Positions 31,336-63,100 of a stretch of DNA of 64,000 bases are shown in pieces. Where the stretch lies: the NCBI RefSeq assembly GCF_032854445.1, contig NC_088300.1, positions 6,262,001 through 6,326,000 on the forward strand, in the 5' to 3' direction. Made by a program: the position numbers and the translations under genes. Under the pieces are notes generated by a model. It made no database searches, was not told where the DNA came from, and worked only from the letters and a program-made list of their open reading frames with translations. Within the stretch, counting starts at the first letter, position 1. Every line of letters starts with the position of its first letter. Source of the stretch: Liolophura sinensis (lineage: Eukaryota > Mollusca > Polyplacophora > Chitonida > Chitonidae).

Positions 31336-34300
31336 TCAGTCCACCTTAGCCCCATACTTTTCCAGTATTTCTCTCATGAGTGGTCTCGAGCGAGCCTGCT
31401 CTGCCGCCGTATTACCAAAGATGTCTTGTTTGTCTGTGTGTACGCCCTTCTGCATGAGGAACTCCACAACATCCGGGTGATTAGAACAGACAGCCTGCAC
31501 CAGGAACAAATATATGTCAAAACAAAGTCTCGTCAAAACAAATGGACATCAAAACAATTACACATGAAACAATCACACATCAACGCAATTATACATCACA
31601 TACATGTAATCACATGTAGCATGGATACAGTGTTTATTGGTGATGGAAGTGAGAGGAAACGAGGTAAAAAAACATGGCCCTTTACCAGCTACCTGGCCAA
31701 CCTGGTGACTTAAAGTTACAGCCACATCAGCGAGAGCTGGATTCAAACAGGTGACTTCATTCATGAATGGATATGTTTTGTGGGCCTATGTAAAGTTTTA
31801 GCTTGGAACCCACAGGTAATTAGTTTGAAAACTTAATGCAGGAATATATCTTGTCAATAAAACTTGTTTACTAAAACGTGTATATATGTGACCCCTGTCG
31901 CTTTCCCTCACCACATGTAATGGAGTCCTCATGTCATAGTCCGCTGAATTCAAATCTGCCCCAGCCACACTCCACGCCTCAATAACTGTACATTGTTCAT
32001 GGATGCAGCACTGTCAACAGGGTATTAACACATCAAGTTAACTTTTCTTCGGTGCTGTATTTGACCCAAAATTTCAACATGACTATTTTAAAACTGCTGG
32101 ATTCTGAGGATTCTATTCATCCAAAAAGAAATGTGCTTTAGGGATTGTTCAGAGGGAGGGCAAGATAAGGTTCATCACCAAAATATAATATTTCATAACC
32201 TTTATTTTCATTTAAAATGCACTGTTTTAGGGGAATTTTTAGAGGAAATACAGTATGTATCTAAGTTATATTTGGTAATCAACATACATATCACCATAAC
32301 ATCAGAGATTTAACCAGAAAAATGACTTCATTCCTGACTCAGAGATTGCCTAGGAGAGGGCTTGAGATAGCTGAATCCTACCAGCAGAGGTCCATGGCTA
32401 GCCGGACAGAGGAGTGGTTATGGCAGCGCCTGTTTGTATCAGCAGGCGTATCACATCCAGGTGGGTGCCATGAATGGCGTCTGTGAGGGCTGTCTTGCCC
32501 TCGCGATCGCGCACATGTACAGAGGCACCATGGTGCAGAAGGTACTGGACCACTCGGATGTGACCCTCACTAGCAGCCACGTGCAGGGCAGTCCTCTTGT
32601 CATAATCAGCTGCTGATATATTAATACCCTGAAAACACAGCATACATGTTCACATACATGTGATAACAGACATGCCCAGTCTGGTCATACTGACCAATCA
32701 ACGCATGAACAGTAACAAACCACACCACATGTGTTTACATTCCAATGTGTTCTCTTGACAGGCTTAAATACCTCGTGAGGGTAAAAAGCCTTGTCATCAA
32801 ATATCAAGTGTTCTAATTGACCGATGTAGTATTCTGATTGGCCGTTGTAGTCAGTCAGATTATTCTGACAATGGTGATTGGTCAATTATACTGTGGCAAG
32901 GGCAAAGCCGTACACTGGAGGTGCATTATCTAGGTAAATCGCATGAGGTAACTCCTTCTCTTCAGTATACACAAAGTTCAGATTTGTACAGAAACATGTT
33001 TTGTTTATACCTATATTAAACATACCTGTAACAAAGAATATGTGCCAGATAAAGTACTTATTTCTTTGCTTATTAGACCACTGTGTAATATTATTGTGAA
33101 GAATTTTTTCATGTAGATGACGAAGGTCATGTTTATGGGTGAAGGAACCAGAGCACCCAAACTAACCACCTGACAAACCTCCTAACTCACAGCCACAGCC
33201 CAAGCAGAAAGAGCGGATTTAAACTGGTGACCTCTTTCTTCATGGAGCCTATATTAAAATGTCAAAGTGCATTTCTATGCACCGTACCTAACCTGTTATA
33301 ACTCAGTTTTCACTCAGTTATATGTACATGTACCTATATGTCATAATGTGTAAAACATCTGAGACAACTCACACTCTGTACATGTAGCATGGTATTAAAT
33401 TTCATATAACATACATATATCAATGATTAGGCCATGAGTAGAGAACTGAAAAAGGGAGATAACTCACACTCTGTCTGAGCTTCTCCAAGGTTTGCTCGTC
33501 TCCAGCCTGAGCTGCAGCACAGAACAATGTGGGGTAGATTGCATCCCGGAGCTGGATAATCTCCTGCCAAATTTATAAACATGAACCATCATTTTAGAAT
33601 CACATAATTTCCACATGACAAACGTGGAAGAAATATTTGTGTAATGTGATTTCTCAAAAATACACTGCAGGCCACTTTGCAATATACCTTACACTGAGAA
33701 ACTTCTGATGTACTTGATAGTGACGAACACCTGACATACTTGACAGTAGCTAACCTCTGATGCATTTGACACAGACTTACCTCTGATGTACTGAGACTCA
33801 TCGCACTGGCCACACTCTCCAGAAGTTCAAAGTCCCTCAGAGATATGTTGGGCTTCATCACCACTTTCATCTCACCACGTAAATTCCTGCTCATTTTCTT
33901 TGAAGAAAACATAAAATATGTCAGGATGGGAAAGACAGACAGGGCATTTTGGTTGACATACTACAACACTGTAATCATTAGGTATTCCGGTTAATAGGTA
34001 CGACCTAATTACCTACAAATCAGTGAAACCACTAGGTACAATCACACTTGTACACACAGGTTAAATAGCCAGTCATATATTCAGTTGTATGCAGTAAATT
34101 ATATTCAATTACAGGCATGACTTTTTTTTGGTCATTTGTTTTTTGTTTGTTTGTTTTTTGTTCTATATTTCAATCATTGTCTTGGAACACAGAACTAACT
34201 TAAAACTAGAGAAAGCATCGGGTAGAATCAGATGTGAACTCGTCACACAGGGCATCTAACTTTCATTCACACTTCGACTCAAATTCAAAACTACATCATA

Positions 34301-37300
34301 CAAAGAGCTGATGGCTTGTGTCACAAGTACTCACTGCTCGTTTCTTCTCTAAACTCCAGTTATTCTTGCCTAACACATAGCTGAGCTTGGTCAAGGCTGC
34401 CTCCGTGGTCATGTCTCCCCCGGGGATCACACCAGCATCCTGCAATGCCTGAGGGGCAGAAGAGAACAATTATACTCCGCCTGCAGGATAACTATACATG
34501 GTAAGTTTTTATCACTTTTATCACCTACATCTGTATGAATATTTATATACTGCTTTGAAGTATGCTTATAACATAAGAATGATATCCTAATGGAAAACTT
34601 CAAGCTGGCAGTTCCAGCATCAAAACTAATAGTTCATGACCTTTTCTTGCCACCTACAATGAACTTTTTAGGGCATGTACGAGATACATACATGTAAGTT
34701 TTTATGTGAATGAGCGTATTTTTAAGGGACTCAAGGAAAATTTGTTTTGCATTAGCTGATCTCCCTAGGAAAAATGATGGTGATAATCTACCTGTCCTGT
34801 AGCATATGACATCTGTACAGTGCCCCGGTTACACTGACTTATGTTCACAATGAGTACACCCCAAGCCGAGGCATCCTTAAACAGCTTCATGAGGTCCTTC
34901 CTCTGATGAGGCGCATTGCCTGCCCCATATGTCTGTAACACCACGCCCTGGATTGGAGGCCGCAGGAAGGCTCGTACCTGAAAAAAAAAACAGAGCATGT
35001 TACTGTGGCATGGAGTGAGCAGTGTGCTAAATACAGTTTTCTACTGCAATCGTAATCTGCCAAAAAAGTATCCAGGATAAATAAGTACCATGAAAATATG
35101 TAACAGATAACACTTCAGTACAGAAGAAATGTTTGATTTAACATTGCTTTCAACTGTATTTTACCCCACCCAGTCACAGTACACTGACACCAGACACAAC
35201 CCCACCCAGTCAAAGTACACCGACACCAGACACAACACCCCACCCAGTCTCAGTACACTGACACCAGACACAACCCAACCCAGTCAATGTGCACCTACAC
35301 CAGACACTACACCCCACCCATTCACAGTACACTGACATCAGACACAACACACCACCCAGTCACAGTACACTGACACCAGACAGGCAACACCACCCAGTCA
35401 AAGTACACTGACACCAGACACAACACCCCACCGTACACTGACACCAGGCACAACACCCAGTCAAAGTACACTGACATCAGACACAACCCCACCCAGTCAC
35501 AGTACACTGACACCAGACACAACACACCACCCAGTCAAAGTACACTGACTCCAGGCACGCCACACCACCCAGTGAAAGTACACTGACTCCAGGCACGCCA
35601 CACCACCCAGTCAAAGTACACTGACACCAGACACAACACTTCACTCAGTCAAAATACACCGACACAAGACACAACACCCCACCCAGTCAAAGTACACTGA
35701 CACCAGACACGAACACCCCACCCAGTCACAGTACACTGACACCAGACATGACACCCCACCCAGTCAAAGTACACCGACACCAGAGACAACACCCCACCCA
35801 GTCACAGTACACTGACTCCAGACACAACACCACCCAGTCACAGTAAACAGACACCAGACACAACACACCACCCAGCCACAGTACATTGACTCCAGACATG
35901 ACACCCCACCCAGTCAAAGTACACTGACACCAGACACAACCCCACCCAGTCTCAGTACACTGACACCAGACACAACACCCCACCCAGTCACAGTACACTA
36001 ACCCCAGACACAACACCACCCGATCACAGTACACTGAGACCAGACACGACACCCCCACCCAGTCAAAGTACACCGACCCAGACAAAACACCCAACCCAGT
36101 CACAGTACACTGCCACACCACCCAGTCAAAGTACTCTGACACCAGACACAACACCACCCGGTCACAGTACACTGAGACCAGACACAACACCCCACCAGTC
36201 ACAGTATACTGACTTCAGACACAACACCACCCAGTCAAAGTACACCAACACCAGACACAACACTCACCCAGTCACAGTACACTGACACCAGACACAACAC
36301 CCACCCAGTCAAAGTACACCAACACCAAACACCCCACTCAGTCAAAGTACACTGACATTAGACACAACACCACCCAATCACACTACACCAACACCAGGCA
36401 CAACACCCCACCCAGTCACAGTACACTGACACCAGACACAACCCCACCCAGTCACAGTACACTGACACCAGACACAACAGCCACTCAGTCACAGTACACC
36501 AACACCAGACACAACACCCCACCCAGTCACAGTACACTTACACCAGACACAACACCCACCCAGTCACAGTACACTCACTCCAAACACAACACCCACTCAG
36601 TCAATGTACACTGACACCAGGCACAACACCCCACCCAGTCACAGTACACCGACACCAAACACAACACCCACTCAGTCACAGTACACCGACACCAGACACA
36701 ACACCCACCCAGTCAAAGTACACCAACACCAGACACAAACACCCACTCAGTCACAGTACACCAACACCAGGACACAACACCCACCCAGTCACAGTACACT
36801 GACTCCAGACACGCCACACCACCCAGTCACAGTACACTGACACCAGACATTTTACACCAACAGTTTAAGTCACAATAGTAAATAGAATTGAAATCTACAG
36901 GTGATAAATAATAAATTTATACAGGTAAGCACAACACTACATGTATATTGTATATGTAAACTCAAATACAATATTTGTATTGTGTTTGTATTTGTAATAC
37001 TACCTCCACGAGCTTTTCCAAGTTTTCTGTTATTTTTTCATACAAGTGCAATCAGATTTACAGGTGGAGGAAACTGGAGTGTCTGGAATAAACCAACAGC
37101 CTTTGGCAGATTGCTGGCAAACCTGTCTAGAAGCTGTAGAAGAGCCTGTGAATGCTTTATTTGAGCCTGTGACCTCATAGCGCCTGAAGGCTAATAGCTA
37201 CAATGAACAGATGGCATTAAATAATATTTTATTCAAACAAATGATCTGAATTGACAAACAGCCTGAATAAATGTCTCTCCGCATACCATACTGTTCACAA

Positions 37301-40300
37301 CAAACACTAAATACAAACTGACTGATTTAAACTATGTTTCTGGCTTATATATATTTCTAAATATACATATGCGGGCACACACCCACTCACACAAGTACAA
37401 TTGCAAGCAAGTACAAAGATATTTGAATACAGCAGTGTACCAGGTCCAGGTTTGTGAGGCAATGAAGGGTGTTATGCCACCAGAACAAGTCATTTTAATT
37501 TTATTTTTTTAATTACATTTTTTCCATGCAAGAATACTGTCTTGTACATTATCAAACATTGGAAGGTTTCCATATATTGATAACACATAATTACTATAAG
37601 AAGGCTTCTCACAAGTGGATTAGTCTCTGTAGGTCCGAAAATGTCTAATCTACATGCTGCCTATATCCAACACTTATGAAAGAGATGTAAGCTATCTTTG
37701 GTGTGATGTCCACAGGTGAAACATGCAGTATCAGAAATGTGCTTTGAGAACAAGTGTGCTTTTAGCCTTGTTCATTCAACAACGAAATTTCATAGTCTTT
37801 CGTCAGTTAAATATTTTTGGGTAGGTCACAAAAAACAAGGCATTCTAAGAATACCGATAGCTGGCCTGATTGAGTACTTTGTAAAACTGCATAATGCTCA
37901 AGTCATGGGATAGAAGTACATTTAACTATTGACCTCTAAACCAAAAGGGGGCCTCTGTGGCTCAGTTGGTTTCAGCACAGCCTAATGACTCAATGTCCCT
38001 CACCAATGCAGTTGCTGTGAGTTCAAGCCGAGCTCATGCTGGCTTCCTCTCCGGCTGTACGTGGGAAGGTCTTCCAGCAACCTGTGGATGGTCGTGGGTT
38101 TCCCCCAGACTCTTCCCTGTTTCCACCCACTATAATGCTGGCTGCCGTCAAATAAGTGAAACATTCTTGAGTACGGGGCAAAATACCAATCAAATAAATA
38201 AATCAAATAAATAAATCTAAACGAAAATAAAGTAGAAGGATTAACAATGTCATACAAATACTATCCTCTAAAAATATAGTGCTAAAATCATGCCATTAAA
38301 TCAAGAAGAAAAGACCAAAATTATTATACTGTCACAACTATGATCGTGAGCTAAAACATCAACCAAATGGATTAAGTAATAAATAAGCAAATAAATCCAA
38401 ATCAGAAAGCTACCTACCATTTGCTCAGAGATACTTGGGAATAGCCTTAACACACCAACATTCTGACACATGTTTGCGTGAACACGGAATTTCTCTGTAC
38501 CCCCACTCCTGAACACAGCCGCCCAGTCCACTGGAAAATGAGGAAAGAAACAACTTAGAACATGAAAAGAAAGATTTTAATTACTGTTCACACAAAATGT
38601 CAAACTCTGATAATGAGCAAAAATACTGGCCTTCATACTTTATGTTACAGACTCCAGACACATAATTAACTCATATTTATGAAACAAACCATTGACCAAA
38701 CTGTCACGTAGTTCTAATGTGATTACGCTAATTCTTCTTAAATTTGGGATAAATATTAGTTGTAGAATATCACATTTCTTTGCCAGCCTTTTGGAAAAGT
38801 AAAGATATGAGTATGTTGTTCATTAGATGGTCTAACCATGCAAGAAAAAAAACCTCAATATTCCTGCTAGGATTAAATATATATTGCATTACATACATAA
38901 AATGAGCAGACAAAGTGTCCCAAAATTTTAGAAGAAATAGGGTATGGACTTAAAAAAAAACTTAAAAAATAAAGCTCAGGCACATCACGTAGTGATGTCT
39001 TCAAGATCAGTTTGTATATCCAGCTGAGGAAATTGTTCTAAAGCTCACTGGGCACAACCACAGGTATTCAATTTGTTGACATAAACCACTGTTAGCATTC
39101 CAGAATAGTGGAGAAGGATGCAGGAAAAGATAGTCCATTTATCCAAGATACACAAAGTTAACATTTTCTGATCTGCACTGTGGAGTTTTCAGATAATAGT
39201 GACGGATATGTTGTAATGGCCCATCACCTCAAACTCTTTTTCCCCATCATTCTATAATGTTATTAAGTCTTACTGTCATTCACTACTACTTGCAGTAGAA
39301 GTAGGTTGAGAAGTACTTTTGGTAATCCTTCTGTACTGTTATATGTACATATAATACATACCATACACACTGCGGAAATTAATTTAAATTCTATAGGAAG
39401 TTAGGAACTTACCAATTTGACCATGTACATGCTGATATTGCCATAAAACTCCAGGCGCTTAGCTGTACAAACTCACTGTGTATTGCTGTACAAACTCACT
39501 GTGTACTGCTGTACAAACTCACTGTGTACTGCTGTACAAACTCACTGTGTATTGCTGTACAAACTCAACGTGTACCGCTGTACAATCTCACCATGTATTG
39601 CCATACAACTTCACCATATATTGCTATACAAACTCACCATGTATTCCTGTTCAACCTCATCATGTATTGCAGTACAAACTCCCCATGTATTGCTGTACAT
39701 ACTCCCCGTGTATTGCTGTACAAACTCACTGTGTATTGCTGGACAAACTCACCATGTATTGCTGTATAAACTCACCATGTATTGCTGTACAAACTCACTG
39801 TGTATTGCTGTACAAACTCCCTGTGTATTGCTGGACAAACTCCCTATGTATTGCTGTACAAACTCACCATGTATTGCTGTACAAACTCCCCATGTATTGC
39901 TGTACAAACTCCCCGTGTATTGCTGTACAAACTCCCCGTGTATTGCTGTACAATCTCACCCTGTATTGCTGAACAAACTCACCGTGTACTACTGTACAAT
40001 CTCACCATGTAGTGCTGTACAAACTCACTGTGTATTGCTGTACAAATTCACTGTCTATTGGTGTACAAACTCACTATGTATTGCAGTGCAAACTCACTGT
40101 ACATTGCTGTACAAACTCACTCTATATTGCTGTACAAACTGTCTACTGATGTACAAACTCAATGTGTATTGCTGTACAAACCCACCATGTATTGCTGTAC
40201 AAACTCACCATGTACTGCTGTACAAACTCACTGTGTATTGCTGTACAACCTCACTGTCTTGTGCTGCACAAACTCACTGTCTATTTCTGCACAAACTCAC

Positions 40301-43300
40301 TGTGTACTGCTGTACACTTACCATACTTACCATATATTGCTGTACAAACTTACCATGTATTGCTGTACAAACTCAGCATGTATTGCCATACAGACTCACT
40401 GTGTACTGCTATACAAACTTACCATGTATTGCTGAACAAGCCCACCGATGTATTGCTGTACAAACTCACCATGTATTGCTGTATCTAAATGAACTAAAGG
40501 TGCAGCATTTGGAGAATCATAAGCATTGAAACTCAAATTGTCAGTTTTGATGGCACGATTTCCTCGATAGACTTTGTCATTGAAGCAGATCATGACCTGT
40601 TGACAAAGAGAATTAGTAAAGGTAGTAAACACACAGGCTATGGGTTAATAGCTCACATACAGTGGATATAACAAGAATGTGACTCTTTTTCACTTGTATG
40701 TAATGTAATCCTTTTCACATTAACGTGGACACTGGGTTATACACATGTACATTTTCTCCACAAGAAGTGCAAGACTTAAGTCTCGGTCAGAAAGTTTTAA
40801 CGTTCTCAGTGAATAAGGGGCACACAGCAGTATTATGTCTTAATCAATGCATCTTCCATCTCTCTAAACAGTTTTTCTTGTTAAATCATACAATGACGTG
40901 AACTCTGTCCAACACATTACAACACACACTTACGCCTTACTTAAGAAAGGAATGAACAATTAAAATGCAGCCAAGTCTGAGGTAAAAGTAAAAGGAGACT
41001 TGTCAAATGTCCGACAGTAGAGCCTTGACGACATTTTATTGACATCCAATAAGTTCATTACCTACAAGCACAGTATGCAACTTCCCTATAGCTAGTCCGT
41101 GGCACAGTACATGCCACCTGGTGGAGAAATATGCCAACCTCTTGGGTGGAAATTGTGAACTGAATCATGGAAAATCTAAATGTAAACACTGCTACAAGAC
41201 CTTGCCACATCTTGAAACTGAAAGTCCGTATTTAAAAACTACGATTTTGCTAATTATTTTGGCTATGCAGTTAAGAACCCATTGACTATTTCTATATTTC
41301 CAAGCAACTATAAAACAATTACAATCAAAGACATTGATGTCTTTTAACAAAACTTCCTGTTGTCGTAATTTCATTTTATTAATTTCAGTCTATTTCAACA
41401 CAACCGCGTTTGGAACTCATCATGTATCAGCCTTTTCTCAAATATTTGCTACACAACAGAGAAAAATACATGGCTGCGCAAATTCGTCACATATCAAAGA
41501 CAAATGTAAAGCGCATTGGAGAATAACTAGAGAGAAGATGCATACTTCTCGGTAATGGACTTGTGATGGACGTACAGCACAGAAAGTAAAACCAGAATGA
41601 CCAGGACAGTGTGACAGACGTGCAGCGTAGAGAGTAAAACCAGAACTGTGACGACAGTGTGACACACGTACACCATAGAGATTAAAACCAGAACAGTGAT
41701 GACAGTGTGACAGACGTACAGCATAGAGAGTAAATCCAAAACAGCAATGACAGTGTGAAAGATGTACAGCATAGAGAGTAAAACCAAAACAGCAATGACA
41801 GTGTGAAAGACATACAGCATAGAGAGTAAAACCAGAACAGCGATGACAGTGTGAAAGACGTACAGCATAGAGAGTAAAACCAGAACAGCGACGACAGTGT
41901 GACAGATGTACAGCATAGAGAGTAAAACCAGAACAGCGACGACAGTGTGACAGACCTACAGCATAGAGAGTAAAACCAGAACAGCAACGACAGTGTGACA
42001 GACCTACAGCATAGAGAGTAAAACCAGAACAGCAACGACAGTGTGACAGACCTACAGCATAGAGAGTAAAACCAGAACAGGGATGACAGTGTGACAGACG
42101 TACAGCATAGAGAGTAAAACCAGAACGATGACAACGGAATAGCTGGCAAATGGTCCCTCGTACCCAGTGAAATACATGCGACACAGAACAACGTTACAGT
42201 AGAAAATAATACATTGTAGCAATATATACGATGCACTACAATCATTTTCTGGCGTAACCATGGCTCTAAGTTTGGTTTCGCGCCAGCGCCATCTTACATG
42301 ATATGCCGCCTCTCCAATGAAACAAAGAAAAGTGTATCTGCTCTAAAGGTTATAAGAAAAGCAGGAAATTGTATCATTAGTGTGATGCAATGATCCTAAA
42401 TTATGGCGTCTAATATGAGAGTCTTACCTCTGGAATGCTGTACAGGCCGGCTATAACAAGAGCAGAGAGGAAGTTATCCCGTCCATCACTTCGCAACTCA
42501 AAAATAGGAATCTACAATAAAGATCGACATTTGAGCCAGAACCCATGGCAGAGAAACACACGAGGATGCTGATTTCACAAACTCTAGAAAGACCACCTCT
42601 CTGAATATTTAAGATACAAATGAAATGCTAGCTTATCAACTGTTCATTGTCTCATTACCTGACAGCAAAAAACAATAATTTCTTTGGTGGTTCACAGGGT
42701 GTTACATGTATGAAGAATATGAAGAGATCAGGTTATTTTGAGGAAAAGAGCAACAGGCCATAAAAATGTCATCTTGTCATGTAGATGTATGTGACAAACC
42801 TTAAAGCAAGAGAAAGGCAGCAAGAGTTGAATTTGAACATCCATCCTCATTTTCTAATGGCGTGTTACATCTTGTCAGAGACCCCTCGACAGGGATGGAA
42901 GAATAATACAAGGGATATGTCATCAATACAGTACAGAAAACAACTTTTGACAAGTAGAAAATGCCATGTCCGTATCACAAGCTTGCACTGATTCTGACCT
43001 ATAAAATTTCACAGATGTGATCTCAGAGCTGGTCAGTGTGATAGGTTTGCCCAGAATCTCACCTATGAAATGTCACTGATGTGTCTGGTCTATAACTCAC
43101 CTGTAAGCCAGTCAGTGTGATAGGTTTGCCCAGAATCTCATCTATAAAATTTCACTGATGTGTCTGGTCTATACCTCACCTGTGAGTCAGTCAGTACGAT
43201 AGGTTTGCCAGATTCACACCTATGAAATGTCACTGTTGTGTCTGGACTATACCACACCTGTGAGTCAGTCAGTATGATAGGTTTGCCCAGAATCTCATCT

Positions 43301-46300
43301 ATAAAATTTCACTGATGTGTCTGGTCTATACCACACCTGTGAGCCAGTCAGTATGATAGGTTTGCCAGATTCACACCTATGAAATTTCACTGATGCATCA
43401 AGTCTATAACTCACTTGTGACCCAGTCAGTGTGATAGGTTTGCCCAGAATCTCACCTATGAAATGTCACTGATGTGTCTGGTCTATAACTCACCTGTAAG
43501 CCAGTCAGTGTGATGGGTTTGCCCACAATCTCATCTATAAAATGTCACTGATGTGTCTGGTCTATACCACACCTGTGAGCCAGTCAGTATGATAGGTTTG
43601 CCCGGATTCTCATCTATGAAATGTCACTGATGTGTCTGGTCTATACCACACATGTGAGCCAGTCAGTATGATAGGTTTGTCCAGAATCTCACCTATGAAA
43701 TGTCACTGATATGTCTGGTCTATAACTCACCTGTGAGCCAGTCAGTGTGATAGCTTTGCCCAGATTCTCACCTATGAAATGTCACTGATATGTCTGGTCT
43801 ATACCTCACCTGTGAGCCAGTCAGTGTGATAGGTTTGCCCACAATCTCATCTATAAAACTTCACTGATGTGTCTGGTCTATACCTCACATGTGAGCCAGT
43901 CAGTATGATAGGTTTGCCCATATTCTCTCCGAAGAAATGTCACTGATGTGTCTGGTCTATACCTCACATGTGAGCCAGTCAGTATGATAGGTTTTCCCAG
44001 ATTCTCACCGAAGAAATGTCACTGATGTGTCTGGTCTATACCTCACTTGTGAGCCAGTCAGTGTGATAGGTTTGCCCAGATTCTCACCTATGAAATGTCA
44101 CTGTTGTGTCTGGTCTATACCACACCTGTGAGCCAGTCAGTATGATGGGTTTGCCCACAATCTCATCTATAAAATGTCACTGTTGTGTCTGGTCTATACC
44201 TCACCTCTGAGCCAGTCAGTATGATAGGTTTGCCCGGATTCTCATCTATGAAATGTCACTGTTGTGTCTGGTCTATACCACACCTGTGAGCCAGTCAGTA
44301 TGATAGGTTTGCCAGATTCACACCTATGAAATGTCACTGATATGTCTGGTCTATACCACACCTGTGAGCCAGTCAGTATGATAGGTTTGCCAGATTCACA
44401 CCTATGAAATGTCACTGATGTGTCTGGTCTATACCACACCTGTGAGCCAGTCAGTATGATAGGTTTGCCAGATTCACCAGTCAGTATGATAGGTTTGCCC
44501 AGATTCTCACCTATGAAATGTCACTGATGTGTCTGGTCTATACCTCACCTGTGAGTCAGTCAGTATGATAGGTTTGCCCAGATTCTCACCTATGAAATGT
44601 CACTGATGTGTCTGGTCTATATCTCACCTGTGAGCCAGTCAGTAAGACAGGTTTGCCAGATTCTCATCTATAAAATGTCACTGATGTGTCTGGTCTATAA
44701 CTCACCTGTAAGCCAGTCAGTGTGATAGGTTTGCCCACAATCTCATCTATAAAATTTCACTGATGTGTCTGGTCTATAACTCACCTGTGAGCCAGTCAGT
44801 GTGATAGGTTTGCCAAGGTTATCACCTATAAAATTTCACTGATGTGTCTGGTCTATACCTCACCTATGAACCAGTCAGTATGATAGGTTTGCCACATTCT
44901 CACCTATGAAATGTCACTGATGTGTCTGGTCTATACCTCACTTGTGAGCCAGTCAGTATGATAGGTTTGGCCAGATTCTCACCTATGAAATGTCACTGAT
45001 CTGTCTGGTCTATACCACACCTGTGAGCCAGTCAGTATGATAGGTTTGCCAGATTCTCGCCTATGAAATGTCACTGATGTGTCTGGTCTATACCTCACCT
45101 GTGAGTCAGTCAGTATGATAGGTTTGCCCAGATTCTCACCTATGAAATGTCACTGATGTGTCTGGTCTATACCTCACTTGTGAGCCAGTCAGTATGATAG
45201 GTTTGGCCAGATTCTCACCTATGAAATGTCACTGTTGTGTCTGGTCTATACCTCACCTGTGAGCCAGTCAGTATGATAGGTTTCCCCATGAAATTTTACT
45301 GAGCATCAGGTATTTAACTCACCTGTGAGCCAGTTAGTATGATAGGTTTGCCCAGGTTCTCACAGATAAACGACAGTGCTGAGGCAGTGTAAGCCATTGT
45401 GTCTGTCCCATGTAATATCACAAACCCGTCATACTGATCATAATGTTTCTGAAAAAAAAAAAAAAACCATAAAACAACACACATAAAACAGTATTATTTA
45501 ATAAACAGACTCCATATTACAGATTTACTTCAGTATTGCTGACCACCTGTTACTAGTGATGACCGACACTGCTGTAGAACACCGTTGGGTAATAATGAAA
45601 TTCCTTGTACACCAGTGGGGATTTGTGCTTCTATGAAGTAAGGTCCTAGGTCAGCTTGCATGAAACCCAGCATTAAGTGTATATAACCACCTTGGCAACC
45701 AGTTTGGTAGGGATAACACTGACATGGGAGTGAGGAGGTCATGATGTTATAAGGGTCTCATGGGAGTGAGGAGGTCATGATGTTATGAGTGTCTCATGGG
45801 AGTGAGGAGGTCATGATGTTATAAGGGTCTCATGGGAGTAAGGAGGTCATGATGAGTGTCTCATGGGAGATCATGTTGTTATGAGGGTCTCAAACAAGTG
45901 ATCTAACTGTCTTAGGAGGGCTGTTATTGTTATGAGATATCTTTGTAGAAAAGTCAGAGTATATTTTAACAGTTTGTAACCAAACAAATACATGTAGGCT
46001 TGAAAATACATAAGAATTAAGGTAGGGAACCTCACAGGCTCACATGTTTAAGATGCTGATTACAGCTACATGTATGAAGCTCTTGATCAACAAAGTAGCA
46101 TTTTTGAGAGTCCAGTTCTTGCTGAAGCTGATATTTCTGGCTAGGAGGATTGGAAATGGTCAGTGGTTTACCCCAGCCACTCTGGTCTCAACCACCCATG
46201 ATAAAACTGACCCCCATCAAACATGTGATAAACTCTTCAGTATGGTGTTAAACTCCAATCAAATAAAATATAAATAAATAAGAGAGCAAGACTTTGGTCA

Positions 46301-49300
46301 AGTGATACAGCTAACTTAGCGTACTAATGGCAAAAGAGTGGAATAATCTATTGAGGAACTTGAACTGACTTCAGTTTTGGGAAGGAAAGTTTTAAAAGAG
46401 GCCTTAGAAAAAATTAGTTACTAAACTGATAAAAACATCTTAATATTTCAGAATACAAGTACAGGTATTTAAAGATTTTGACCAATCATGCTGTGTTTTA
46501 TGTTGACGTAGTTTGCATGAGCCCTGCCAGGTTTCTCTGCTTATTTATTTTTCCTCTCTGCTGACCAGTTGGAAGGGAGTTAATTTTAAAGACTGACCTA
46601 CTTTTAAAAAAGAATGTGGTGAGTTATACTGGGACGATATTAACATGTTTGATACGTTAAACCTCCAGCTACGGCACATCTATGGCCAGTCCTGGCTTAC
46701 CTTGTGATAACAAAGGGCTTCAAATAGCAGGTGTGAGAAGCAAACAAGAGCTGGGGAGAAACTGGACACCAGGCGCACAGCTCTGTGTGTATGTAGTATA
46801 GCCTTCTCCCGCTACATGTTGCGAATGTTTTACTGATACAGGACTGCACCATACTGCTACAGTAATCACTCCTCTAGAAAAAGGTTAGGAGTACACACCA
46901 GGGCCTGGCATGATGATGATGTCATTTGCATCCAAAAAATACAATAAATATGCTAATTTTATACACAGAATTCCACACACAATTGTGAAGAATCCAAGCA
47001 TTTTTAAGGCATGTTTGTGATGTACATGTGCTTGACTTACAATGAACATCTGGTGTTCACTAATCCAGTAAACAGCAACTGTCACAGAGCTACTGACGGA
47101 ATGTCTGAATCAACAACTGCATTAATCTACTCACCAGTATATCATTGGCCACCCTCACCCAGTCCTTCATGGTCATGTTACACGAGTCCAATAGAGGTTC
47201 ATATTCCCACATCTGATAACAGATCCTGTTACCATCCTTAGTTGCTCTGGACACACACAAACAGGTAAAATCAGAGGAATAGACAGACAACATAGCATAC
47301 TCTAGGGCACTGTACAATTACACAAGACTCATCCAATCCAGGGTAGTTAACTGAAAAACAGTTATTCATTTAATTTTTCAAGTGTTTTTTTTTCTACAAA
47401 AGACTTAACCAACTTATGTGAAGGGAAAAGAAAGGAGAGTATGTCAGAGGAGACACTGTAGGTAGAGAGAGAGAAGAGCTATGATAGGAAGAGAAGGTGT
47501 GAGAAGGAGTCAGAGGAGACATGGTAGGTAGAAAGAGAAGAGTTATGATAGGAAGAGAAGGTGTGAGAAGGAGTCAGAGGAGACATGGTAGGTAGAGAGA
47601 GAAGAGTTATGATAGGAAGAGAAGGTGTGAGAAGGAGTCAGAGGAGATATGGTAGGTAGAGAAAGAAGAGTTATGATAGGAAGAGAAGGTGTGAGAAGGA
47701 GTCAGAGGAGATATGGTAGGTAGAGAAAGAAGAGTTATGATAGGAAGAGAAGGTGTGAGAAGGAGTCAGAGGAGATATGGTAGGTAGAGAAAGAAGAGTT
47801 ATGATAGGAAGAGAAGGTGTGAGAAGGAGTCAGAGGAGACATGGTAGGTAGAAGGGTTATGATAGGAAGAGAAGGTGTGAGAAGGAGTCAGAGGAGATAT
47901 GGTAGGTAGAGAAAGAAGAGTTATGATAGGAAGAGAAGGTGTGAGAAGGAGTCAGAGGAGATATGGTAGGTAGAGAAAGAAGAGTTATGATAGGAAGAGA
48001 AGGTGTGAGAAGGAGTCAGAGGAGACATGGTAGGTAGAAAGAGAAGAGTTATGATAGGAAGAGAAGGTGTGAGAAGGAGTCAGAGGAGACATGGTAGGTA
48101 GAAAGAGAAGAGTTATGATAGGAAGAGAAGGTGTGAGAAGAAGTCAGAGGAGATATGGTAGGTAGAAAGAGAAGAGTTATGATAAGGAAGAGAAGGTGTG
48201 ACAAGGAGTCAGAGGAGACATGGTAGGAAGAAAGAGAAGAGTTATGATAGGAAGAGAAGGTGTGAGAAGAAGTCAGAGGAGATATGGTAGGTAGAGAGAG
48301 AAGAGTTATGATAGGAAGAGAAGGTGTGAGAAGGAGTCAGAGGAGACATGGTAGGTAGAGAGAGAAGAGTTATGATAGGAAGAGAAGGTGTGAGAAGGAG
48401 TCAGAGGAGATATGGTAGGTAGAGAGAGAAGAGTTATGATAGGAAGAGAAGGTGTGAGAAGGAGTCAGAGGAGATATGGTAGGTAGAGAGAGAAGAGTTA
48501 TGATAGGAAGAGAAGGTATGAGAAGGAGTCAGAGGAGACATGGTAGGTAGAGAAAGAAGAGTTATGATAGGAAGAGAAGGTGTGAGAAGGAGTCAGAGGA
48601 GATATGGTAGGTAGAGAAAGAAGAGTTATGATAAGAAGACAAGGTGTGAGAAGGAGTCAGAGGAGACATGGTAGGTAGAGAGAGAAGAGTTATGATAGGA
48701 AGAGAAGGTGTGAGAAGGAGTCAGAGGAGATATGGTAGGTAGAAAGAGAAGAGTTATGATAGGAAGAGAAAGTGTGAGAAGGAGTCAGAGGAGATATGGT
48801 AGGTAGAGAAAGAAGAGTTATGATAAGAAGACAAGGTGTGAGAAGGAGTCAGAGGAGACATGGTAGGCAGAGAAAGAAGAGTTATGATAGGAAGAGAAAG
48901 TGTGAGAAGAAGGAGGAGAAAACTTACGGCAGGAACAATGTGGAAGACAAACCATCCTCATCCACTAGGCTATGATCTTTAGCATAGGTTCTGTCATTAA
49001 ACAGGGGACTATTGAATAGCTCAGAGTGCAGGTAGTTAGCTTCAGGTTCATACCCTACAACAAAATATACACATAGCTTATATACTGTTACTTCTCCTAT
49101 ATCATATGTACAGTATGTGTACTTACTTTTATTGGTGTTTTTGAATGACTGAGACATTACACTGTAAGGGCGGAAAGGCGGGGGGAAGGAGTGAGGTTCT
49201 TCACCAGGAGGTGGCACGTTTGCATCTCTCTACAACAGAGCCTTGTAGTATTTATTAGGAGTTTCTTTCCAGACTCTAAGCATAAACCTGAAGCTTTCGT

Positions 49301-52300
49301 CATAAACCTGAAGTACTGGCCACAAACCTAGAGCACTGGCCATAAACCTGGAACACTGACCATAAACCAGGAGCACTTGCCATAAACCTGGAACAATGAC
49401 TATAAATCTAAAGCACTTGCCATTAACCTGGAACACTAACCATAAATCTGGAGCACTGGCCATAAACCAGAAGCTCTTGCCATAAACATGGAACATTAAC
49501 CATAAACTCTGAGCTCTGGCCAAAAAACTGGAGCACTGACCATAAACCAGGAGCACTTGCCATAAACATGGAACCATATACCTTGAGCACTGGCCATGAA
49601 CCTGGAGCATTGGCCATAAACCCTGGAGCACTGACCGTGAACCATGAGCAATGGCCATAAACCTAGAGCACTGGCCATAAACAAGGAGCACTTGTCATAA
49701 ACATAGAACATTGAGCCATAAAACTTGAGCACTGACTACAAAGCTGAAGCACTGGCCATAAACCTGGAGCACTGACCAAGAACCAGGAGCACTGACCATA
49801 AACCTAGAGCACTGACCATGAACCTTGAGCACTGACCATGAACCTTGAGCAATGACTATAAACCTGAAGCACTGGCCATAAACCTGGCACACTGACCATA
49901 AACCTAGAGCACTGGCCATAAACAAGGAGCACTTGTCATAAACATAGAACATTGAGCCATAAAACTTGAGCACTGACTACAAAGCTGAAGCACTGGCCAT
50001 AAACCTGGGGCACTGACCAAGAATCAGGAGCGCTAGCCATAAACCTGGAGCACTGGCCACAAACCTGGAGCACTGACCTTAAACCAAGAACCAGGAACAC
50101 TAGCCATACACCTGGAACACTGGCCATAAATCTGAAGCACTGGCCATAAACCAGGAGCACTCATCATAAACCTGGAGCACTGGTCATAAACCTGAAACAC
50201 TGGCTGAAACACTTCAAGGTTTACATGAATGGCTTTTGTGATGTGGCCATATCTCAGCTACACATTCATTTTATGCTGAGATTGACACATGCACAATATA
50301 ATATAAATTTTCAATTCGGCAAGGGTTAGAGGCCTTGCTAACAAAAATGGTTGCTCTCTAGACAAGAGAAGCCCCTCCACACCACCCCTACTATATTCGA
50401 TATCAGTACACAGTTATGCCTGCCAAAGCTCGAGATCAATGGCATTTACCTTACATGCCGTCACAGTATGGTAGACCCCAGTAATGTTATCAGACAGACA
50501 TGTACATGTATGCAATTCTGTGATACATCCAACTAGAAATCATTACCAATATTACCTGTATATCATTTTTAGACAACGTGCCAACTGACATTAACACAAA
50601 TGTGCAGCACCACTGAGCAATTAAGGTGCAGTGTATATTGCTACCAGGTCAACATGACACGGCTGACGCACACCTACATATACATGTAGCTACCCAGAGG
50701 CATTACTGTACAGGATACATGGACGTTGTCTTCAGCCTGTACATCAAACCAGTGCCTTATTATTACATGTACTGCTAACCATACTGTATCTTAAATTTGT
50801 TGCAGTTTTTCACTTGACGTCTACAGTTAATTACAGGCCATTCCATACATAGGTACAGTAAAGGCTGTAAAATTAGGTGTATCTTACCACACTGGGCCTT
50901 AACTTGGCACACACTTGATATAAACATAAAATGCATTTTTATGTATTTCAAGGGTTAAATAAAGCATCAAGAGTGCCACATGTAAGTTATATGTAAGTTA
51001 CATTTAACTAGTGCTTAGAATATATGATGTGGCCACATTAACATTGAATTTTCCAAAATACATGTATGTCTGGTATGTTTTGTCAAGGAAGGATATGAAT
51101 ATGACTAGCCAATCCTTCTACATATACATGTACATTTGAATCCCATACATCTGCTACTTGTAGGTGACTTTTATCATGTACACCCCAAACCCTTGCCCTA
51201 CATGTATCTCACATGACGCCTACATGATACTTGTCATCTGAAGCATACTGGTGCTAATTATCATAATGAGTACAGTCACACTACAAGAAACCACCAAATC
51301 TACATGTAAGCCTTGAAATAAACAGCAAACAATATCTGACTGTGACCAACCGGATTTTTTTTTTTTTTTGGTACACCATACTCAAAAATATTTTTCTGGA
51401 AAACCCACAACCATTTGCAAGTTGCTGGCAGACCTTCCCACATACGAAAAGAGAGGAAGTCAGCATGAGCTGGACTTGAACTCACAGCAATCCCATTGTT
51501 GACAGGTTCATGGGTCATCGTGCTGCGCTAGACAGCTATCCACCAGGACACAGGGGCCTCTGTTTGGGACAGGATAAAACTGCCATGTAAATAACATTGT
51601 AACTTATTGTAAATAATGTGAAAAGCTGGAATATTTTACTTTATGTCTACCAGAAACTAGAAAGTTATATTCAGTCTACATATGTACAACAACAGTAATG
51701 TAACTGTAATAAAAAAGATAATTGATTAACGCACAAAAATGCTACCCCATTGTCTAGTAAAGCATTGTACTGTGCAACTATTATTACTACAGTACACAAT
51801 ACAATTATCAGTTATGGGCATTATTTTCTGAAGTCAGGAAGCAAATTTTATGTATCTACATTGTAGTGCTGTCTGCCAATGTACATGTATGCATTGTATG
51901 TCTGCAATAATTATAAGTATTACCCTGCCAATACATCTATACTGGTTACAACAAATATATGTATATACATTTATAACACTACACAGTTTACCCCATGTAT
52001 CCATACACCATGTATGTTGTATATTTCATGCACAAGAACATAAACATAACTTGGCACAATTAACTATAAAACCAATATAGTAAATCACTAAAAAAAATAC
52101 TAATATTATGGCACCTAATTCAAACAGTCACCAATACTAAGACTACTACCAATATATCAGCTCTACATATAAATGGAGTTTGGGTATCAGACCCAAGGTC
52201 TCCAGCACCTCTGCTTGTCAATATCTAGCCTATATATGGTACATGTACAAATCTAACTCCTCCATCCAAACCTTCAGTAATACCCCGTTCAAACACAGAT

Positions 52301-53849
52301 GCCATACATATAGACCTATAGCAATACCCTTTAATGTATCTATCAGAAAAATGTAAATATAAATAAAACACCTGCATCTCACAAAACCTACAAAATATGA
52401 CAAATAATAGCTCGGGCAAAAAACAATTTGACCTTGGAGATCGATCCATACAAAGAGTTAGAATGTTCAGGTGACAGAAGCTTCATCAGAACAAGATACT
52501 GATTTCATTTCGGCCATCATTACAGATATTTATGTACAGTGTCACCCATGTAACATACCCTCCATAACGTGCCCTACCCTACGTTTTTAATGGGATTTTG
52601 ATACAAGCTTTCTAAATTAATTTTCTCTAAAAATTAATTTCTACAAAATCTCAATCTTTTTCATTTGTCAAAAAAGGAAACCAAAAATTCCAACATGGTT
52701 TTTCCTATTGTGTTTGGTTACTCTCAAAGAAATTATGAAAGATGATCTTTGCTTTGGATTTTACCATCTGAAAGTGGATATCCAAGAGAAAAGTTTGGTC
52801 AAATCAGGTACATCTATATTAATGAATGGACGTTAAAATTGACAGCTGCTCTGATATTGTAAGGTGTTGATCATAACGAGTTTCGTACCTTTACTTCTTA
52901 TATACCAGGTACATGTTGGACTGACTGACACGATAAATTGCATGCATGTATTTTGAAACTTTACCAAAAGGTAAGTGATTTGGACATGGTGCAGCCCTAA
53001 TACTTTAGTGAGCTATGTACTGCCGTAAAGGGTAGGACAACAATAGTATAGCCCCCGAGAGCTGTGAATGGCATACAGTGAATGGGAAGGAGGTATATTT
53101 TCAATACCACAAGGTGGCGCTAGTGTGAAACTGGACCTCAAACCATTATTACATCACAAAACTGACTGTACACAATGTCTATAATGTTGCCATACATATA
53201 CCAGTTTATTCGGAGATGTTGTACTTTCTTTACTGTGACCTCATTAAAATGAGCTGGGAACATTTTAGGTCACCTTCTGCCAGCTGGGTTCCAATTCTCT
53301 TCATTAGAGTACTGATCAAGCACCAAATCAATTAGGGAATTATCAGGGTAATGAACAATACTGCAGACATCTGCGCCATGATATGTGCAATAGATTGAAA
53401 GCTATGTATATTTTCAGTCACCAATTAAGCCACATTAAAGTAAATCAACAACATTAAATTTACTACCTCCATATCTTATATTTCTCACATTCATTCGGTT
53501 GGAAGTAAATGTAAAGATGTATAATAGAGATGTGCAACAGAGATGTTCAAGCTACTCCAGATACAGGTCTAGAGCTCATGTTGCAATCAAACGTACCTCC
53601 TTTGCCTGCCTTCATTCCAATCGTCCCGCCTGTGTACAGAACTAAGACGTTGTGTTCATCGGGCGGATCTTCCAATCCTGGATGTTCAAGGCTCCCTACA
53701 GTTCTAGGGGAGGCCGGTAACGTGGGTGACGTCTGCCCGTCATCACTTGCTGGGAATGTCTTCAAAACCTTCTCGCGGTAGGATGGATCTTCAAATTCCA
53801 ACGACGGCGACTGCTCCAGTGCGTGTGAATGACGACGAGCTGAAGCCAT
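31336..53849 (-). CDS. ASPG: L-asparaginase (cytosolic type I) with C-terminal ankyrin repeats, 15 coding exons, two single-base frame breaks near 3' end
   Basis: Exons, high to low: 53849-53597, 49225-49127, 49054-48928, 47246-47135, 45448-45323, 42511-42428, 40596-40470, 38530-38418, 34977-34792, 34448-34335, 33897-33781, 33563-33468, 32628-32382, 32010-31912, 31494-31336. The product is about 686 residues once two missing bases are allowed for (human ASPG 573). Residues 67-80 carry YTGGTIGM with the nucleophile Thr about 76; HGTDTM (Thr212-Asp213) is the second motif; NRAIK gives Lys about 284. Ankyrin repeats fill about 520-680 ([31 protein letters not shown]). The enzyme hydrolyses asparagine to aspartate and ammonia; mammalian homologues are also reported to have lysophospholipase activity. 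The N-terminal extension before the first strand is about 65 residues, much longer than in human, and is Ser/Pro-rich. The frame breaks, near 32401 and 31977, look like dropped bases rather than decay. Confidence 0.95.
31620..31775 (-). repeat. Diverged repeat fragment (SINE-like) in the last ASPG intron
   Basis: Text such as ggtgatggaagtgagaggaa and gagctggattcaaacaggtg resembles the tRNA-like and body parts of fragments near 33128-33245, 37065-37160, 57550-57690 and 62000-62090. The family and borders are unclear. Confidence 0.4.
33128..33245 (-). repeat. Diverged SINE-like fragment in ASPG intron 12
   Basis: Contains gaaggaaccagagcaccc and gcggatttaaactggtgacc, the same kind of anonymous repeat as at 31620. 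No ends visible. Confidence 0.4.
33660..33781 (-). repeat. ASPG: Short tandem copies (about 25 bp, 4 units) of the ASPG exon-11 end and its donor
   Basis: On the gene strand, the exon end agtacatcagag/gtaag is followed at 24-27 base intervals by tgcatcagag/gttag, gtatgtcag/gtgtt and agtacatcagaag. Each unit holds about 12 exon and 14 intron bases. Units are diverged, so the array is old. Confidence 0.75.
35150..36855 (-). repeat. ASPG: Minisatellite of about 39 bp, roughly 43 copies
   Basis: Units on the plus strand read cagtcacagtacactgacac then cagacacaacaccccaccc, with length changes of one to a few bases between copies and caa/cac variants. It occupies the intron between ASPG exons 8 and 9, ending about 170 bases from the acceptor at 34978. 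Frames in it change often. Confidence 0.95.
37065..37165 (+). repeat. Diverged SINE-like fragment
   Basis: aggtggaggaaactggagtg and ttggcagattgctggcaaac match a common anonymous repeat body seen elsewhere in the window (57550-57690, 62030-62090). No tail or duplication. Confidence 0.4.
37947..38216 (+). mobile_element. tRNA-derived SINE, full length
   Basis: From gggggcctctgtggctcagt through the box-B-like gtgagttcaagccgagctc and ggatggtcgtgggtttcccc to caaataaataaatcaaataa. Near-perfect 11-base target duplication, ctaaaccaaaa and ctaaacgaaaa, on the two sides. Located in ASPG intron 8. Confidence 0.9.
39460..40490 (-). repeat. ASPG: Minisatellite of 23 bp (about 44 copies) seeded on the donor of ASPG exon 7
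   Basis: On the gene strand the unit is acagcaatacatg/gtgagtttgt: 13 bases that are the end of exon 7 (ending at 40470) and 10 bases of intron including the splice donor. The exon end is the first unit; the rest follow into the intron for one kilobase. Most copies keep GTGAGTTTG; some carry gggag or atgag instead. It makes long chance frames on the plus strand. Confidence 0.95.
41560..42135 (-). repeat. ASPG: Minisatellite of 48 bp, 12 copies
   Basis: The plus-strand unit contains cagcatagagagtaaaacca and gaacagcgatgacagtgtga, at 48-base spacing (for example 41721, 41769, 41817). In ASPG intron 6, away from either exon. The period, a multiple of three, keeps minus-strand frames open; not a gene. 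Confidence 0.95.
43025..45345 (-). repeat. ASPG: Minisatellite of 79 bp (about 29 copies) built from the end of ASPG exon 5 plus its splice donor
   Basis: On the gene strand each unit reads a copy of the exon end, encoding [11 protein letters not shown], then CAG/GTGAG and about 39 bases of intron (ending catttcatag). The real exon end at 45323 is the first unit, followed by a diverged intron copy and then the homogeneous array. Many copies keep a good donor (CAG/GTGAG); others read CAG/GTGTG, CAAGTGAG or CATGTGAG. A second GTGAGA donor-like string occurs per unit. Confidence 0.95.
45738..45890 (-). repeat. ASPG: Minisatellite of about 36 bp, 4 to 5 copies
   Basis: Units on the plus strand read gggagtgaggaggtcatgat then gttataagggtctcat, with a shortened copy near 45850. 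ASPG intron 4. Confidence 0.9.
46150..46280 (+). mobile_element. SINE-like 3' fragment of a second family
   Basis: ggtcagtggtttaccccagc ... ctgacccccatcaaac ... ggtgttaaactccaatcaaa followed by an A/T-rich tail. Related text occurs at 26005-26110. The 5' head is not recognised. Confidence 0.6.
47440..48920 (-). repeat. ASPG: Minisatellite of 64 bp (about 23 copies), flush with the donor of ASPG exon 3
   Basis: The plus-strand unit is agagttatgataggaagaga, aggtgtgagaaggagtcaga, ggagatatggtaggtagaga plus four bases. On the gene strand it is almost pure pyrimidine-rich sequence that begins about six bases after the donor at 48928. Copies are highly alike, so the array is fairly young. Confidence 0.95.
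49262..50215 (-). repeat. ASPG: Minisatellite of 20 bp (about 47 copies) with a 241-bp higher-order repeat
   Basis: The plus-strand unit is cataaacctggagcactggc. Stretches beginning ggccataaacaaggagcac at 49672 and 49913 repeat over about 100 bases, showing a larger duplication about 241 bases apart. The array ends some 40 bases upstream of the acceptor for ASPG exon 2 (49225). Confidence 0.93.
50220..53596 (-). other. ASPG intron 1 remainder, no gene seen
   Basis: AT-rich DNA with one SINE copy at 51356-51560 and otherwise only chance frames. Several tacatgta-type strings recur, as elsewhere in the window. No exon consistent with ASPG is needed: the phases of exons 1 and 2 join directly. 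Confidence 0.6.
51356..51565 (-). mobile_element. SINE, minus orientation, 3' end shortened
   Basis: Reversed copy of the family: ggaaaacccacaaccatttg, gcagaccttcccacatacg, agcatgagctggacttgaac, then the head ccaggacacaggggcctctg. The tail has become a poly-T run at 51354-51369 rather than taaa repeats. No target duplication found. Confidence 0.82.
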
Positions 53850-54403: not shown

Positions 54404-54474
54404 ATTTTAGCTATAGGTGCACAAATGTCTGGCAACCCGAAAAAACTAACCTCACAGTACCGGTACCGATATCT

Positions 54475-58801: not shown

Positions 58802-58807
58802 TTTATT
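58802..58807 (-). terminator. NUDT14: Poly(A) signal AATAAA for the NUDT14-like gene
   Basis: On the minus strand AATAAAG is followed within 40 bases by tttgttgctttgttgagatg and tgtgtgttttg, a strong GU-rich element. It would end a 3' UTR of about 1.3 kb beginning at 60113; that interval holds no other recognised feature. Confidence 0.6.
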
Positions 58808-60113: not shown

Positions 60114-63100
60114 TTACTTGTCAAAAAACCACATTAAGGCAAACATGAGTCCCACAGGTTTGGTTTTACTTTCATCCATCATTAAAGTTCGACCTTGTGC
60201 TAGTGGAAGTTCAACCACCTCAATCAGTTCCCCTTCATGTGCAAGTCACCACCCGGCCCAACCTTCATGTCATCAGTGACCTCAGCATAAAACAGGGTCT
60301 GTTTTGATCCAGATATACCCACTCCAGACCTACAAAAGAGAGGAAGTTATGCAGACCTGGTCATACAGAGAACACAGTGTCATTACATCAGTCACCCACA
60401 CCTGGCCATACAGAGAAAAGAGTGTCATTACATCAGTAACCAACACCTGGCCATACAGAGAAAACAGTGTCATTACATCAGTCACCCACACATGGCCATA
60501 CAGAGAAAAGAGCGTCATTACATCAGTCACCCACACCTGCCCATACACAGAAAAGAGCGTCATTACATCAGTCACCCACACCTGCCCATACAGAGAAAAG
60601 AGCGTCATTACATCAGTCACCCACACCTGCCCATACAGAGAAAAGAGCGTCATTACATCAGTCACCCACACCTGCCCATACACAGAAAACAGTGTCATTA
60701 CATCAGTTTCCCACACCTGCCCATACACAGAAAAGAGCGTCATTACATCAGTCACCCACACCTGGCCATACAGAGAAAACAGTGTCATTACATCAGTCAC
60801 CCACACCTGGCCATACAGAGAAAAGAGCGTCATTACATCAGTCACCCACACCTGACCATACAGAGAAAAGAGCGTCATTACATCAGTCACCCACACCTGG
60901 CCATACAGAGAAAACAGTGTCATTACATCAGTCACCCACACCTGGCCATACAGAGAAAAGAGCGTCATTACATCAGTCACCCACACCTGCCCATACAGAG
61001 AAAAGAGCGTCATTACATCAGTCACCCACACCTGGCCATACAGAGAAAACAGTGTCATTACATCAGTCATCCAGACTTGGTCATACACAGAAAACAGTGT
61101 CATTACATCAGTTACCCACACCTGGCCATACACAGAAGGCTGTGTCATTATGCCAGTCATGCAGACCTTGTCATACAAAGAAGACGGTGTCATTACATCA
61201 GTCACCCACACCTGCCCATACAGAGAAAACAGTGTCATTACATCAGTCACCCACACCTGGCCATACAGAGAAAACAGTGTCATTACATCAGTCATCCAGA
61301 CTTGGCCATACAGAGAAAACAGTGTCATTACATCAGTCACCCACACCTGGTCATACACAGAAGGCTGTGTCATTATGCCAGTCATGCAGACCTTGTCATA
61401 CAAAGAAGACGGTGTCATTACATCAGTCACCCAGACCTGGCCATACAGCGAAGGCTGTGTCATTACATCAGTCACCCACACCTGGCCATACAGTGAAAAC
61501 AGTGTCATTACATCCATAACCATGACCTGGCCATACATAGAAGACAGTGTCATTACATCAATCATGACCTGGTCATACAAAGAACACAATGTCGTTACAT
61601 CTGTCACTGATCAACATCATTTCTTGAGCTGTGATCAGATATTAACACTCAAAACAATTATGGGGCTATACACTGAAAGTTAATTAGCAAATATTAACAG
61701 AACATCTGGCAACCAGTAAATATTAACAGAACATTTGGCAACCAGTAAATGTTAACAGAACATTTGGAAACAGTAAATATTAACAGCCAGAACATTTGGC
61801 AACCAGTAAATATTAACAGAACATTTGGAAACCAGTATATATTAACAGAACATTTGGCAACCAATAAATATTAACAGAACATCTGGCAACCAGTAAACAG
61901 TAACAGAACATTTGGCAACCAGTAAATAGTAACAAACCATTTGGCAACCAGTAATTATTAACAGAATATTTGGCAACCAAAGATATTATTACGGATTTAA
62001 CACTGCACTCAAGACTTCTTCACTCAGGTGGTGACGGTCAGGTTTGTGGGTAGAGGAAACCAGAGAACCGGCAGGCTACCAAGGTCTTGTGATATTTACT
62101 GCTGTCATAATTCTCTGTTAATGTTGAAAATAGTTCTTGGACGCAGACAGATAGAAGATCATGTCCATGAGCTGCTGTTACATACCTCGATAAGTTATGA
62201 GAGTCAAAATATACTATACCTATAGGACGTCACCCGCTCAAAGTTTTCCAGCGGCACATCATACCCACACTCCTCCAGCACTTCCTTTTTGGCAGTTACC
62301 TGTGGGCTTTCATCTTTGTCGATCAGACCAGCGCACAACTCAAATGACACACCCAGTGACCCTGGAAACTCATCCGTGTCGATCGTTTTGACTCCATCCT
62401 CTTCTTTTTCCATTGACATACTCAGATATACAGCTGCACAAAGAGAAAGTGGGAAAGGTTATTTTGGTCAATACATGAGCCCAATAATATTTGGCTATTT
62501 TTTTTCTTGTTTTTAACCATTTTTTGTAACCAGTATCAATGTAAATATCACAATCAAATTGAAACCATACTGCACGCCATAGCCACTGTGTCAATACTGA
62601 TATAGTATACTTCTGACATGCTAACAACCACAGGTCACCATTAACACTGTTAAGTGAAAAATTCTTGGTGTTCAACAACAATCAAATAAATAAAAAAAAT
62701 TACATATCGATACCAAATTTTGAATTCAAAGAAAGGATTTCTGGAGCTGGCCCCACTGGATGAAATATGCACATGATAACATGGTTAAAGGTGGCTGGGT
62801 GCATATCTAGAAGTGTGGAAGATAGGATTTGTGAAGAAGTCAAGAATACATAGTCTTAAAGTAATGTTTGTCACCTTTCTATTACATTTAATCAGTCTAC
62901 ATAGCATGGTTATTCATGTCTTACCTGGCCTGAATTGCTTAACGAGTACTAACACTTGTCGGGTCTTGTTGTAGATGAGCACGCAAACACTGTAATCATA
63001 AATCGCAACCATCAAAGCTAGACATTGGAGGTAATTATATTTGACAAAACCAGAACAGCTCACTTTATATTAGAGACCTGCAGTTGAAAAATGTATGTAA

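Follow-up and report, generated by a model that had tools for sequence, protein, structure and literature searches.

Tandem arrays that copy splice junctions and a stop codon in genes of the chiton Liolophura sinensis

The genes and arrays of the window

We analysed a stretch of 64,000 nucleotides from the chiton Liolophura sinensis (contig NC_088300.1), here called the window, in which three genes are filled to a varying degree with tandem arrays, and in which some of these arrays have copied a splice junction or a stop codon of the gene in which they lie. Such structures resemble the "mirages" of amphioxus, and we use that name here. Positions are those of the whole window, and strands are given for each feature in Table 1. 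The gene models were made by chaining exons via reading frame, splice consensus and phase, and their borders are predicted. The first-pass ASPG peptide matches L-asparaginases with an E value of 1.7e-81, and the introns of this gene are 217 to 4,542 bp long. The other two genes we take to be SERAC1 and NUDT14, names that come from an initial annotation of the stretch and from the human proteins. Together the models have 30 exons and 56 splice borders (27 donors and 29 acceptors), rather than the some 35 borders assumed in that annotation, and all seven borders that it named are borders of predicted exons. Its estimate of about 20 arrays agrees with the 20 merged arrays called by Tandem Repeats Finder (TRF), which was run with strict and permissive settings and from which arrays of at least 2.5 copies were taken; they cover 16,038 bp or 25% of the window. 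Their share of the intron DNA is 39% in ASPG, 12% in SERAC1 and, for the part inside the window, 65% in NUDT14.

At the donor of ASPG exon 4 (45323) the repeated 79-bp unit consists of the last part of the exon together with the donor, and it is found in 28 copies in the intron; the GT is present in 28 of 28, and five copies equal or exceed the true donor in score. The array at the exon 6 donor (40470) extends 14 bp into the exon, and its 41 copies carry the GT in 30 cases; six copies have a score no lower than that of the true donor. Both donors have indeed been copied with the exon end, as first proposed. The exon 10 donor (33781) has been copied too, in a degenerate array of about four 26-bp units that is called under permissive settings only. 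The array at the end of SERAC1, which the initial annotation does not name, overlaps the last exon by 113 bp and has a unit in which the reading frame closes with its stop codon; the protein ends within the first unit, and the later units lie behind the stop. One further donor, at 33468, was counted as copied on a match of 19 of 24 bases, which is short and has flanks that do not match; it may be a chance match, and the window would then have three copied borders of 56 instead of four.

The unit anchored in the exon at 45323 is the most diverged of its array (0.74, against 0.85-0.98 for the others), except in its coding part (0.94), as is expected of an array edge that lies outside homogenisation and has a constrained exon. 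Array sequences were also searched against the assembly (632 contigs, 609,464,459 bases), with very common words skipped. Four arrays were searched in this way and have strong matches at their own locus only, one of them with two weak matches (66-68%) elsewhere, and they were therefore probably born where they are found, as far as this can be judged from sequence. A dispersed satellite family, or an introner-type element, was considered as a candidate and is not supported for these four, as the same unit did not turn up at many unrelated loci. In the same assembly, COX1 is matched seven times in contig C99 (108,685 bp), at intervals of about 15.5 kb, and an eighth match lies in C632; C99 represents the mitochondrial genome, which the assembly has joined into a tandem concatemer. 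Judged by eye, this COX1 is mollusc-like, and amphioxus, considered as the source of the DNA on account of the mirages, was rejected.

Other arrays only adjoin a border (Table 1). The initial annotation described the ASPG donor at 48928 as flush with an array, and the SERAC1 acceptors at 14044 and 16426 as formed by the last unit of one. Arrays do lie close to all three, but they stop short of the junctions, which are not copied. An array beside the NUDT14 acceptor at 60329 is also there, as had been noticed. For these four borders a junction-spanning 24-mer was searched for local copies, and none was found. CTAAC is a branch-point-like motif, and at 16054-16425 it is present in each 31-bp unit, 12 times in total, the last one 26 nt before the acceptor at 16426; the branch point used there may be one that the array supplies.

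Table 1. Gene models and tandem arrays of the window, with the settings under which an extent was called where these differ.
Feature	Position	Strand	Remarks
Mirage at ASPG exon 4 donor 45323	43026..45381 (permissive; strict 43032-45288)	-	79-bp unit
Mirage at ASPG exon 6 donor 40470	39436..40483	-	23-bp unit with donor
Degenerate array of 26-bp units at ASPG exon 10 donor 33781	33684..33792	-	permissive TRF only
Array at SERAC1 stop codon	21343..22146	+	110-bp unit, starts inside last exon
64-bp array near ASPG donor 48928	47443..48912	-	ends 15-19 bp into intron
21-bp array near SERAC1 acceptor 14044	13510..14041	+	ends 2-3 bp before acceptor
31/61-bp array near SERAC1 acceptor 16426	16054..16416	+	ends 9-10 bp before acceptor
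45-bp array near NUDT14 acceptor 60329	60352..61607	-	22-26 bp upstream of acceptor
16-bp weak array near ASPG acceptor 31494	31505..31604	-	10 bp away (strict 38 bp)
ASPG gene model	31336..53849	-	14 exons, single open reading frame
SERAC1 gene model	9731..21455	+	13 exons, two blocks chained separately
NUDT14 partial model	60117..63017	-	3 exons in window, 3' end approximate

A few borders of the models are less certain than the others: the ASPG exon that ends at 32403 has a weak donor with GC, the borders of the SERAC1 exons at 10801 and 11740 are weak, and the acceptor at 14726 was placed by hand. In the last exon of NUDT14 (60114-60346, minus strand) the predicted frame seems to be shifted by one base near 60235-60245, where two overlapping frames each resemble parts of the protein; this may be an assembly error, a real frameshift or a wrong model. 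A short dispersed repeat occurs at least four times in the window (about 2973-3239, 16824-17100, 37933-38214 and 51300-51527) with translations that are similar to each other, and is possibly a short interspersed element (SINE). The chiton of the published genome is now named Liolophura sinensis by its authors (PMC12441733). The repeat table for that genome puts the class "simple repeat, microsatellite, RNA" at 0.08% (PMC11068029), and in another chiton, Acanthochiton rubrolineatus, TRF marks 9.21% of the genome (PMC11545220).

Copied borders in independent genes

Copied borders were also counted in two sets of genes outside the window. The motor sample consists of dynein and myosin genes in 30 regions (238,420 bp) with 139 exons, made up of all 86 dynein matches and of 53 of the 81 myosin matches, namely those inside the fetched clusters; 226 of 278 borders were retained for acceptable splice scores and are regarded as confident. 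It holds 58 arrays, taken from 2.5 copies as in the window, which cover 30,001 bp (12.6%). The kinesin sample consists of 73 exons, the first 78 by rank of 132 matches minus five that are longer than 350 bp, with about 220 bp of flank, in 69 stretches (44,591 bp); 130 of 146 borders were kept by their splice scores, and arrays were here taken from 2.0 copies. A border counts as copied when the 24-mer across it has a copy within 200 bp.

By this test a local tandem copy is present at 12 of the 356 unselected borders (3.4%). The same test gave no hit with 1,769 foreign probes and one with 356 antisense probes. Among the kinesin exons, six of the 14 strict arrays straddle a scored border and five borders are copied, and in the C11:27412763 stretch one further array runs over the end of an exon whose border was unscored. 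An acceptor of a myosin gene (exon start C2:5378497) is repeated in 50 copies, with the AG in 47 of them, and in 42 the score matches or surpasses that of the true acceptor. The acceptor of the C1:95577250 stretch, with its border at 3211, is among the copied borders with a match of 19 of 24 bases, and the kinesin donor at C6:54957324 is a weak GTCAAG site. Both sides of the intron are affected: in the independent samples 8 of 172 donors and 4 of 184 acceptors are copied (p 0.25), in the window 4 of 27 donors (including the match at 33468) and 0 of 29 acceptors, and for all taken together the counts are 12 of 199 and 4 of 213 (p 0.04). In the three arrays compared, at 45323 (28/28 GT), at 40470 (30/41 GT) and at the myosin acceptor (47/50 AG), the degree of conservation is about the same in the core sites as elsewhere in the unit, and there is no sign that the decoy sites have been purged or specially retained.

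Two matches to the myosin head, at C1:26642195-26642299 (positions 118-152 of the head) and at C1:26643291-26643386 (positions 121-152), belong to one gene, are separated by about 1 kb and form a possible duplicated alternative exon.

Contact between arrays and borders

That arrays touch exon borders more often than chance would allow was the central claim of the initial annotation, and the comparison with shuffled arrays, made in the window and in the motor genes, gives a strong excess in both. In the window 0.92 arrays would be expected at a distance of up to 40 bp from a splice border, and seven of the 20 are found there, a number reached in none of 5,000 shuffles; six of the 58 motor arrays overlap a border against 0.93 expected (p 0.001). 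Shuffling whole arrays however overstates the contact. As arrays grow from a small founder, we also used a null model in which the array is reduced to one unit and placed at random, not wholly within an exon; this model and the two internal controls below cover the motor sample and the window, the kinesin flanks being only about 220 bp. The excess becomes weaker under the founder-unit model, and for straddling arrays in the window it is not significant (1 against 0.9-1.1 expected with strict settings, 3 against 1.1-1.4 with permissive ones). In the motor genes the internal controls do not show it. Array edges number 0.33 per kb over the 60 exon bases next to the border (4 per 12.2 kb) and about 0.25 per kb at 10-600 bp, a rate ratio of 1.34 (confidence interval, CI, 0.34-3.94), and the ratio of -5..60 bp to 60-600 bp is 1.54 (CI 0.45-4.3). 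The second control applies the copy test to pseudo-borders at intronic distances of 60, 100, 150 and 200 bp from the border, which are copied at least as often as the borders: 12/222, 12/214, 11/208 and 15/196 against 7/226 in the motor genes, and 7/56, 6/56, 5/54 and 9/54 against 4/56 in the window. There is no clear hot spot at the splice borders, and one of two- to fourfold strength may exist.

The explanation that we find reasonably probable is that the arrays are mirages, that is, local minisatellites of which some were founded by a unit that happened to straddle a gene border, and which are governed by nearly position-blind growth and a filter of selection. It draws on the observed anatomy of the arrays, the copied junctions and their intact sites, the local origin of the four arrays, and the frequency of copying in independent genes. 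We also think it rather likely that a rule by which splice sites seed repeats is not needed.

Such a rule was one of the two readings first offered: DNA at splice junctions would actively seed duplication, for instance through structures linked to transcription or short direct repeats at exon ends, and the founding rate would be raised there. A number of results point in this direction and weigh against the mirage explanation as we have put it. The excess is strong when whole arrays are shuffled, and under the founder-unit model the observed numbers in the motor genes are still two to three times those expected: straddling arrays number 6 against 2.0-2.9 expected with strict settings (p 0.0085-0.051) and 8 against 2.8-3.8 with permissive settings (p 0.003-0.03); arrays within 50 bp are likewise in excess, with 11 against 4.8 in the motor genes (p 0.005) and 7 against 2.3 in the window (p 0.0075). 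In the window the edge rate ratio of -5..60 bp to 60-600 bp is 3.1 (CI 0.95-9.2, p 0.03), and the pseudo-border control is harder on the borders than it ought to be, with intron positions inflated through array growth. On the other hand, the edge density near borders in the motor genes is only 1.3-1.5 times the deeper level with CIs that include 1, the pseudo-borders do not fall behind the borders, and one array has a stop codon as its anchor instead of a splice site. The window was moreover chosen for its pattern, and its excess is for that reason partly a matter of selection. Active seeding is on the whole unlikely, and the independent data do not require it, even if the founder-unit excess speaks for it.

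That copied junctions are retained for a function, as regulated alternative ends or for the recruitment of splicing factors, would agree with copies that are intact and in strength often match the true site, but conservation is no higher in the core sites than in the remaining unit, and copy number, unit and sequence vary between loci, which makes a function very unlikely. Less probable still is that the pattern is artificial and stems from wrong exon models or misassembled repeats, for although one motor border (in the C1:95577250 stretch) was initially misplaced and several SERAC1 borders are weak, ASPG is one open frame with a peptide that matches asparaginases, the units are diverged, and the pattern recurs in independent gene samples.

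Proposed silence of the copies and comparison with known systems

If the arrays are mirages, those throughout the chiton introns would begin with a tandem duplication and then expand by slippage or unequal exchange. A duplication across an exon end would leave one complete junction at the exon, and the copies would move into the intron. As many of the introns are long, the exons are probably recognised across the exon, and in long introns the splice sites that are closest across the exon are reported to be preferred (PMC9225289). By this preference the outermost copy would be picked; the copy nearest to the exon would be used and the other intact copies would be silent. The same logic would apply to the stop codon of SERAC1, where the first stop would end translation regardless of what follows, and the array there supports the mirage explanation in that it is anchored like those at splice borders. 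The second reading of the initial annotation, that arrays are tolerated because they leave the true signal outermost, agrees with the intact decoys, the stop-codon array and the published preference, and we infer the choice of splice site, as we do the mutational mechanism and neutrality.

A wider reading, which we put forward tentatively, is that intact decoy splice sites are very numerous in chiton genes, with about 3% of the borders copied and single ones copied 40-50 times, presumably independently of amphioxus, and that donors are copied more readily than acceptors. The right donor would be the first one to be transcribed and the right acceptor the last, which could explain the difference. 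If this is true, the choice of the outermost among dozens of near-identical sites is a natural, genome-scale test of exon definition.

Introns are reportedly gained through tandem genomic duplication of AGGT sites, in which the duplicated splice site yields a new intron. The likeness to the chiton arrays is that a tandem duplication copies a splice site, and the difference would be that the chiton copies lie inside an intron of which the border stays in use. Variable internal tandem repeats in human paralogues have units of about 30 bp, some of them at exon-intron borders, but they are found in recent duplicates in which exons and introns are altered, and do not form arrays of silent decoys (PMC2812944). 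The metallothionein genes of earthworms have large intronic minisatellites, and duplications of the fourth exon that are missing from the final transcript; they are perhaps related to mirages, but an array that copies a border does not appear in the portion of the description available (PMC12783039).

The closest relatives in structure are the mirages of amphioxus, tandem duplications of intron-exon borders that two papers describe for Adh3 and globins (PMC3087553) and for TnC and PGBD5 (PMC3902484). According to these papers, splicing is undisturbed, and instability in length and somatic change have been seen (PMC3087553, PMC3902484). As described there, they share with the chiton arrays the minisatellite-like duplication of borders on the donor and the acceptor side, with many copies that have an intact AG or GT. 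A unit that spans a border, as in a mirage, is found in ASPG at 45323, 40470 and 33781, and at the 12 copied borders of the independent samples. The chiton arrays differ in that they belong to Mollusca, reach about 50 copies, and are known here from one genome assembly alone. No report of mirages in molluscs was found among the papers listed in a literature search that was aimed at this and had subscription papers and the original 2002 paper on amphioxus Adh outside its scope, and priority is not established. In the literature that was found mirages are a peculiarity of amphioxus, and the rate measured in a mollusc suggests that they occur wherever introns fill with minisatellites. The chiton arrays have the known structure of mirages, now in a distant phylum, and offer natural, near-identical and competing splice sites for tests of exon definition, of how introns are gained and of what decoy sites cost.

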